From: Candidatus Manganitrophaceae bacterium
Lineage (GTDB): Bacteria > Nitrospirota > Nitrospiria > SBBL01 > Manganitrophaceae
DNA length: 64,000 nt
Direction of reading: 5' to 3'
Assembly: GCA_016200325.1 (NCBI GenBank)
Contig: JACQEZ010000011.1
Location: 434,001 to 498,000, forward strand
Shown: positions 25,711 through 27,887 of the stretch, piece after piece
Layout of the letters: each line of letters opens with the position of its first letter
How positions within the stretch are numbered: the first letter of the stretch is position 1
Program-made: the position numbers and the translations under genes
The notes under the pieces: generated by a model
The model's database searches: none
What the model was told of the DNA's origin: nothing
Seen by the model: the letters and a program-made list of their open reading frames with translations, nothing else

Positions 25711-25746
25711 CGTGAACTCCTTGTCGTTGATTGCGGCGTTCTATTC

Positions 25747-25800
25747 TAGACATCTCTCTAGACATCTCTCTAGACATCTCCCTAAACATCTCCAGACATC
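25747..25800. repeat. 12-base tandem repeat
   Basis: Intergenic minisatellite. Units are TAGACATCTCTC twice, TAGACATCTCCC, then the shortened TAAACATCTCC and AGACATC. It lies between the ACT gene start and the promoter of the sulfur-carrier operon. The first two units are identical and the later ones decay, which suggests recent slippage. Confidence 0.85.
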
Positions 25801-25972: not shown

Positions 25973-26173
25973 ATGAAAATTAAGCTCTACCATCCGACGC
26001 GTGAGGTCACGCTCAAAGGCCCCAAACAGGTGGCGATGCTCCTCAAGGAGCTCAATCTGGCCAAAGAGGCCCATCTGGTGATTCGCGGGGATGAGCTCGT
26101 GACGGAAGATATCGTCCTCTCCGATGACCAGATCGTCGAGATCCGCCCGGTCATCTCCGGAGGGAGCCGATGA
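25973..26173 (+). CDS. ttuB: Ubiquitin-like sulfur carrier (MoaD/ThiS/TtuB family)
   Basis: A 66-residue beta-grasp protein. It starts MKIKLYHPTREVTLKG and ends VISGGSR: the di-glycine that is adenylated and thiocarboxylated in MoaD, ThiS and TtuB is at 63-64 but is followed by Ser-Arg. Because the next gene is TtuA-type, I read it as the sulfur donor for tRNA 2-thiolation. The two Gly codons (GGAGGG) also form the ribosome binding site of ttuA. In-frame ATG 25961 and TTG 25937 upstream lie in the promoter and are unlikely starts. Confidence 0.8.
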   Translation: MKIKLYHPTREVTLKGPKQVAMLLKELNLAKEAHLVIRGDELVTEDIVLSDDQIVEIRPVISGGSR

Positions 26174-27066
26174 AGTGTCGTCAGTGCGAGACCCCCGCCG
26201 TCATCAAGATGCCGCGGCACAACATCGCCCTCTGTCCCCGCTGTTTTGACATCTATGTCCGCGGCCAGGTCGAGAAGGCGATTCACGATGGAAAGATGTT
26301 CCGGCGCGATGAGCCGGTGATGGTGGCGGTCTCGGGGGGAAAAGATTCACTCGCCCTTTGGGACCTTCTGATCAAGCTTGGCTACCGGACCGCCGGCCTG
26401 CACTTAAACCTCGGCATCGGCGACTACTCGGCCCTCTCGCAAAAGAAGGTCGAGGACTTCGCTCAGGTGCGCGGCGCCGAGCTGATCATCCATGCCTACC
26501 AAGAGGCGTATGGCCTCGGCGTGATCGAAATCGCGGAGGAGACGGCCCGCCCCGCCTGCTCCGCCTGTGGGACGATGAAGCGTTATCACTTCAACCGGAT
26601 TGCGATGGAGCGGGGCTTCCCCGTGGTCGCCACCGGCCATAATCTCGACGACGAAGCCTCTCGCCTTCTCGGCAATGTCCTTCAGTGGCAGGAGAGCTAT
26701 CTTGAGAAGCAGTCGCCGGTGCTCTCCGACGAGGGGGGAACCTGGGCGAGGAAGGTAAAGCCGCTCTATCGGCTCGCCGAGCGGGAGCTGGCCGCCTATG
26801 CGGTCGTCCACCGGATCGATTACATCGTCGAGGAGTGCCCGATGTCGAAGGGGGCGAAGACCCTCCTTTATAAAGAGGTCCTCAACAAGCTCGAAGAGGC
26901 CTCCCCCGGGACGAAGCATCGGTTCTATCTTGGCTTTTTAGGGCGGGAGCGAGCCGCCGCGACCGCCCCGCCGGAGGGAAGCCCTCAAGCGTGCCGAAGC
27001 TGCGGCCAGCCGACGCAGGGAGCGGTCTGCAGTTTTTGTCGATTGATGGAGCGGGTGGCGCCATGA
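26170..27066 (+). CDS. ttuA: tRNA 2-thiolation enzyme, TtuA/NcsA family
   Basis: A 298-residue PP-loop ATPase. Visible elements: N-terminal zinc finger Cys3, Cys6, Cys22, Cys25; PP-loop SGGKDS at 55-60; three cysteines Cys130, Cys133 (CSAC) and Cys223 (EECP) placed as the [4Fe-4S] ligands of TtuA; C-terminal zinc finger Cys275, Cys278, Cys287, Cys290. TtuA adenylates U54 in the tRNA T-loop and inserts sulfur from TtuB. Archaeal/eukaryotic relatives (NcsA, CTU1) act on U34, so the target position is inferred. ATGA overlaps on both sides. Confidence 0.88.
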   Translation: MKCRQCETPAVIKMPRHNIALCPRCFDIYVRGQVEKAIHDGKMFRRDEPVMVAVSGGKDSLALWDLLIKLGYRTAGLHLNLGIGDYSALSQKKVEDFAQVRGAELIIHAYQEAYGLGVIEIAEETARPACSACGTMKRYHFNRIAMERGFPVVATGHNLDDEASRLLGNVLQWQESYLEKQSPVLSDEGGTWARKVKPLYRLAERELAAYAVVHRIDYIVEECPMSKGAKTLLYKEVLNKLEEASPGTKHRFYLGFLGRERAAATAPPEGSPQACRSCGQPTQGAVCSFCRLMERVAP

Positions 27067-27887
27067 GACCGTTGGCCTCCGGAGAGCGAATTCATCTGAT
27101 CAATAAAAAGGGCGATCCTTATCCGTTGCTCCTGAAGGCGGGGGCACTCTTTCAGTTCAGCGGCGAGACGATTGCGCACGATGCGATCATCGGACTCGAC
27201 GAGGGGAGCGAAATCACCCTCTCGCGCGGAACCCGTTTTTTTATCCTCCGTCCGACCCTCGCCGAATATATCCTTCACATGCCGCGCGGCGCCCAGATCC
27301 TCTATCCGAAAGACTTGGCGCTGATCTGCATGTGGGCCGACATCTATCCCGGCGCCACCGTTCTGGAGGCGGGGATCGGCTCGGGGGCATTGACGATCGC
27401 CCTCTTAAACGCCGTTGGGGAGAAGGGGCGGGTCGTCAGCTATGAGCTACGCGAAGACTTCGCCCGCCGGGCGGTCGCGAACATCGAAGCCTACCTCGGC
27501 CAATCGATCATGGCCGACCGCCTGCTCGTCCGCCAGCAAGATGTCTACGAAGGGATCGAGGAGGCGGAGATCGACCGGGTCGTTCTCGATCTGCCGGAGC
27601 CGCAGCGGGTGGTGCCGCACGCCGCCGCCAAGCTTCGCCCCGGCGGGATCTTCCTCTCGTTCGTCCCGACCGTTCCGCAGATCGAGCTCGTCGTCGCGGC
27701 GCTGCGGCGAGAAGGCTTCGCCTATATCGAAACGTTCGAGACGCTGCTGCGGGGGTGGAACATCGACGGCCGCAGCGTCCGTCCCGATCTTCGGATGGTC
27801 GCCCATTCGGGCTTTATCACCACGGCCCGACGGCTCAAGCGGCATGCCTCCGGCGAGGCGACCCCGCCGCCGGAGCCGGCGACCTGA
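27063..27887 (+). CDS. trmI: tRNA (adenine-58-N1)-methyltransferase, TrmI type
   Basis: A 274-residue SAM-dependent methyltransferase. The N-terminal small beta domain is followed by motif I VLEAGIGSGAL at 100-110, acidic YELRED near 127 and DLPEP at 176-180, the TrmI/Trm61 pattern. It should make m1A58 in the T-loop. The ATG at 27063 overlaps the ttuA stop, which rules out the longer frame from 26991. In Thermus, m1A58 promotes thiolation of position 54, so the coupling with ttuA makes functional sense. Confidence 0.9.
   Translation: MRPLASGERIHLINKKGDPYPLLLKAGALFQFSGETIAHDAIIGLDEGSEITLSRGTRFFILRPTLAEYILHMPRGAQILYPKDLALICMWADIYPGATVLEAGIGSGALTIALLNAVGEKGRVVSYELREDFARRAVANIEAYLGQSIMADRLLVRQQDVYEGIEEAEIDRVVLDLPEPQRVVPHAAAKLRPGGIFLSFVPTVPQIELVVAALRREGFAYIETFETLLRGWNIDGRSVRPDLRMVAHSGFITTARRLKRHASGEATPPPEPAT

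Follow-up and report, generated by a model that had tools for sequence, protein, structure and literature searches.

The window, a 64,000-nucleotide stretch of a Nitrospirota genome with Candidatus Manganitrophaceae as its closest named relatives, carries a small sulfur-carrier gene whose product ends in VISGG followed by Ser-Arg, and the question raised by this locus is why such a carrier should extend past its Gly-Gly and how it could then be used. Translation of positions 25,973 to 26,173 of the plus strand gives MKIKLYHPTREVTLKGPKQVAMLLKELNLAKEAHLVIRGDELVTEDIVLSDDQIVEIRPVISGGSR before the stop codon, 66 residues in all, which bears out the ending given in the initial annotation. According to published work, TtuC adenylates a free C-terminal Gly (PMC3980101), and in the T. 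thermophilus structure the C-terminus of TtuB itself coordinates the Fe-S cluster (PMC7138817). In the window carrier, the translated C-terminus is not Gly-Gly, as Ser-Arg come after it, and Gly-Gly would become the C-terminus only upon trimming.

A phmmer comparison matched the carrier to T. thermophilus TtuB (5ztb) at E 4e-5, and its AlphaFold model (pLDDT 88.4) gave TtuB 5ztb_E as the best PDB match, with a TM score of 0.88. The adjoining gene, at 26,170 to 27,066 (+), encodes a 298-residue protein assigned as the tRNA 2-thiouridine synthase TtuA, which matches T. thermophilus TtuA 5gha_A at E 7e-88 by phmmer, exceeds the Pfam cut-offs for both TtuA_LIM_N and ATP_bind_3, and contains the PP-loop SGGKDS. 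Lysines K137, K226, and K229 of T. thermophilus TtuA, given in one report as the TtuB-conjugation lysines (PMC3980101), align with K137, K227, and K230 here. By predicted fold and partner gene, the window carrier is a TtuB, and the pair resembles T. thermophilus TtuB/TtuA (s2T54 of tRNA) in that the carrier adjoins TtuA, ends in ISGG, and shares the TtuB fold, with the conjugation lysines of TtuA kept. T. thermophilus TtuB, in contrast, stops at GG in 5ztb, where the alignment reaches the last residue of the 74-residue chain, and the window carrier has two more residues. The Pfam ThiS model scored the carrier at 22.1 bits, missing the cut-off of 22.5 by 0.4 bits, and TtuB genes in this group may be under-annotated.

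The two genes form a tight set with a third, a TrmI-like tRNA (m1A58-type) methyltransferase gene at 27,063 to 27,887 (+; PF08704 E 3.5e-30, PF14801 E 6.7e-10), and ATGA is found at both junctions: the TrmI-like ATG overlaps the ttuA stop at 27,063–27,066, and the ttuA ATG (26,170–26,172) overlaps the ttuB TGA (26,171–26,173) at 26,170–26,173 (+). Upstream of ttuB, between it and a divergent ACT-domain gene, 4.8 copies of the 12-bp tandem repeat TCTAGACATCTC occupy 25,745–25,800 (no strand assigned).

The Gly-Gly codons, GGA GGG at 26,159–26,164 (+), are followed by the Ser-Arg codons AGC CGA at 26,165–26,170 (+), leaving a spacer of 5 nt between GGAGGG and the ttuA ATG. Pairing between these codons and an anti-Shine-Dalgarno core was computed at −10.0 kcal/mol, similarly strong to the −10.2 kcal/mol of E. 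coli moaD/moaE. In the 26 orthologous loci with ttuA starting at most 17 nt past GG, the Gly pair opens with GGA in 16, GGG in 8, and GGC in 2, and GGA is found at only 8/65 of the other Gly codons of those genes compared to 16/26 at the first Gly (Fisher p 5e-6), a comparison for which the near/far cut (17/20 nt) was picked after the list had been inspected and in which related loci are not independent. Near and far loci are also unlike in their internal Gly codons, which have G or A in the third place in 35/65 and 30/140 cases, respectively, so part of the near/far difference reflects genome composition; the GGA bias at the first Gly codon indicates that the downstream start shapes codon choice at the Gly pair. 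The claim in the initial annotation that these bases serve both as Gly codons and as the Shine-Dalgarno sequence of the ATG at 26,170 is thus upheld by spacer, pairing, and codon bias.

The same geometry is seen at thiS-thiG of the window's genome, where GGGGGAGGA is followed by 5 nt and an ATG and the ThiS tail is SLCR. In E. coli K-12, the Gly-Gly codons of thiS-thiG and moaD-moaE (GGGGGT and GGAGGT) are likewise Shine-Dalgarno-like, with 4 nt separating them from the ATG that follows; these carriers differ in having no tail, with 1 nt between stop and start. The predicted doubling of Gly codons as a ribosome binding site is therefore real but not unusual, as E. coli does likewise. No earlier description of Gly-Gly codons as a ribosome site was found in a limited literature search, and one may exist. 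As to the overlap, a study of gene spacing gives the −4 arrangement (NTGA) as the commonest among closely spaced genes and spacings of −4 to +3 nt as those with the best coupling (PMC12548453).

Tails were compared across orthologues by examining 124 loci, of which 108 had the carrier in the sequence examined and 88 remained after removal of copies; one locus (L028) was omitted because of masked bases, and the ttuA start of L045 was placed by hand for the codon count. The tail is absent in 32/88 and present in 56/88 loci, ranging from 1 to 24 residues, with 14 tails of one residue, 14 of two, and the rest of 3 to 24. Relatives carry SA, RA, RR, GA, GG, or GE, or nothing. A conserved tail motif was rejected, since none was present in 20 aligned carriers, where S62-G63-G64 is invariant and nothing after GG is conserved. 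On a quick tree built from 87 TtuA rows, the tail is gained or lost at least 22 times, with 12 of these changes forced by well-supported branches, and the tail label is only a little more clustered than when shuffled (21 of 500 shuffles as low), a pattern that speaks against a conserved signal. An error in reading the stop or the frame was also rejected, as the ATGA overlap recurs in relatives with different residues and a conserved Met-x-Cys N-terminus fixes the ttuA start.

The ATGA overlap with ttuA occurs in 21/56 tailed loci and in 0/32 tailless loci. With ATGA in place, the Gly codons would hit the start codon if there were no tail, a tail of one codon leaves a spacer of 2 nt, and a tail of two codons leaves 5 nt. 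In a tailless carrier with this overlap, the Gly codons would thus be of no use as a ribosome site, and ATGA coupling combined with a spacer of 5 nt requires a tail of at least two residues. Short tails combined with the overlap are found at four loci and are always two residues long (SR in the window, RR in L014, RA in L045, SA in L046); in L014 and L046, the Gly pair opens with GGC, which makes a weaker ribosome site. In the long tails of Nitrospira, the Gly codons lie at least 23 nt from the ttuA start and can have no Shine-Dalgarno role, so this coupling route leaves those tails unexplained. The Nitrospira tails after ISGG (L031, L059, L080, and others) also differ by an in-frame 21 nt, SPRFTSHE versus SPRFTPHVSRLTSPE, as if a repeat sits between ttuB and ttuA.

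The search for a JAB/JAMM-type protease suggested in the initial annotation yielded an intact gene elsewhere in the genome (L119:5641–6078, minus strand; PF14464 E 1.5e-28). Its product contains E...HSH(x7)S(x2)D, which we take to be the JAMM motif, and its PDB relatives include 2kks (E 4e-24) and P. furiosus JAMM1 (5lda/5ld9). By our reading of the translations, its neighbors in the cluster are two MoeB-like E1 genes, the gene of a carrier that ends in AIAGG-SF, and threonine-synthase-like and cysteine-synthase-like genes. All five carriers of this genome extend past GG, with the tails SR, SF, SLCR, S, and ASQTKMRS. A JAMM mutant of T. thermophilus is reported to show abnormal TtuB conjugates, with thiouridine at roughly half its usual level (PMC3980101).

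A JAMM match was present in 130/130 ttuA-bearing genomes of the phylum sample and in 282/295 genomes of the phylum, so near universal that co-occurrence with ttuA says little. Carriers of JAMM-less and JAMM-bearing genomes were compared. In Nitrospirota, residues after GG were present in 6/21 JAMM-less compared to 38/58 JAMM-bearing carriers (p = 0.005) with G118 counted as JAMM-less, and in 4/19 compared to 40/60 (p = 0.001) with G118 moved, p-values that are too small owing to shared ancestry, as the genomes are not phylogenetically independent and some are fragmented MAGs. These counts cover carriers that reach GG by alignment: for the JAMM-less set, 26 matches were listed and 24 read, 3 of them without GG, leaving 21; for the JAMM-bearing set, 30 of 44 matches and, in a second batch, 28 of 33 were read and counted, the 13 comparison genomes of the second batch having been hand-picked from the same families (f14 contributed none), and some additional carriers that were read stand outside the count. 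In a second phylum, that of locus L117 (titled Actinomycetota), the counts were 0/14 JAMM-less and 30/62 JAMM-bearing (p = 5e-4, again too small for the same reason), with 1/4 in weak-match genomes, these carriers being hand-picked among the matches listed (14 of 19, 62 of 137, and 4 of 8, respectively); 11 of the 30 tailed carriers extend by at least 58 residues and are fusion-like, and one of the 30 runs off its contig.

Tails are thus strongly associated with JAMM-bearing genomes and largely confined to them. The exceptions are G122, with two tailed carriers; G243, with one carrier tailed CF and one ThiS-ThiG fusion; and G296, the genome of L118, where the TtuB tail is F and which alone among four genomes reached via other loci had no JAMM match. 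Searches of G122 and G243 returned only weak JAMM matches (E 0.07 and 0.27), so both remain exceptions. G118 was rejected as a JAMM-less genome with tails, since its contig starts within its JAMM gene. A TtuB-TtuA pair close to that of L118, an uncultured actinobacterium, is found in L115, a record titled Bifidobacterium breve, a title that is probably wrong.

These observations suggest that trimming before use is the likely, and best, reading of the tail. We propose, with a probability of about 0.7, that TtuB is made as a short pro-form. Translational coupling to ttuA would place the ttuB stop codon, and the use of the Gly-Gly codons as the ttuA Shine-Dalgarno site together with the ATGA overlap would result in two extra codons after Gly-Gly. 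The JAMM protease, whose gene lies elsewhere in the genome next to E1-like genes and a further carrier with a tail, would cut after the last Gly and so mature TtuB and the other carriers prior to adenylation; the cell would tolerate tails because this metalloprotease removes them. We infer the cleavage itself, the action of this JAMM on TtuB, and coupling as the selective reason for the tail.

Removal by some other enzyme, a carboxypeptidase or general protease, would fit the tailed carriers of G122, G243, and G296, in which the searches detected no JAMM. We regard this as unlikely, as a general protease would predict neither the 0/14 in the second phylum nor the 0/14 among Nitrospirota JAMM-less carriers outside G118, G122, and G243, and G118, at first an exception, has a contig beginning inside its JAMM gene. 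That the tail is never removed and TtuB-SR is not a working carrier, with TtuA using sulfide directly or another carrier, is less probable again; ttuB stands near ttuA in most loci read with its ISGG end kept, as is not expected of a dead carrier.

The least probable alternative, and a very unlikely one, is that Ser-Arg is a specific regulatory signal whose removal controls tRNA thiolation. The tail is real, and the free C-terminal Gly that TtuC is reported to adenylate (PMC3980101) would suit such a signal; against it stand the different residues, or none, in relatives and the repeated changes of the tail on the TtuA tree. The initial annotation had seen trimming as a possible control step and had named tailless orthologues as evidence against it. 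The trimming itself gains from the JAMM gene, the tails found largely in JAMM genomes, and the Fe-S cluster bound by the TtuB C-terminus, whereas control specific to Ser-Arg is not supported, given 32/88 tailless loci, no conserved tail sequence, and at least 22 changes.

The proposed maturation of a pro-form by JAMM has parallels. In QbsE/QbsD, HcyS/HcyD, and PdtH-type carriers, a JAMM protease removes a C-terminal extension. The window's genome is alike in having a carrier that extends past GG together with a JAMM-type protease; it differs in that the tailed carrier serves tRNA thiolation, the JAMM lies outside the operon of this carrier, and the tail is probably a consequence of the gene overlap. 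Iyer et al. 2006 proposed that JAB may release ThiS/MoaD fused to other proteins, which likewise places a JAB/JAMM cut at the last Gly of the carrier; that proposal concerned fusions, while here short tails were compared across JAMM-less genomes (PMC1779556). A broader reading, possible though somewhat short of even odds, is that in bacteria possessing JAMM this single enzyme matures every sulfur carrier and thereby relieves their stop codons of selection, so that tails and fusions come and go, molded by coupling in which the Gly-Gly codons provide the ribosome site of the following gene. If so, JAMM would be a general sulfur-carrier maturation enzyme beyond a few special pathways, and its loss would stop the pathways to thiamine, molybdenum cofactor, and cysteine as well as tRNA thiolation, all together, in genomes such as the window's, where each of the five carriers is tailed. 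A testable rule is that residues after Gly-Gly in sulfur carriers are expected where a JAMM protease exists, and the end of a protein may be shaped by translation of the next gene.

In relatives, the carrier that adjoins cysteine synthase can even be joined to it: L224 (G252:C6) and L232 (G183:C81) each encode a single in-frame fusion of a ThiS-like carrier with a cysteine-synthase-like protein, genes that are separate in the window's genome, and such a fusion would need a cut after GG. Contig C9 also carries two further JAB-containing sets with E1-like proteins (L123, G000:C9:135001–139000; L122, G000:C9:79501–85000), one of which includes a ubiquitin-like protein, and judging from their translations these sets resemble conjugation-type or mobile systems.
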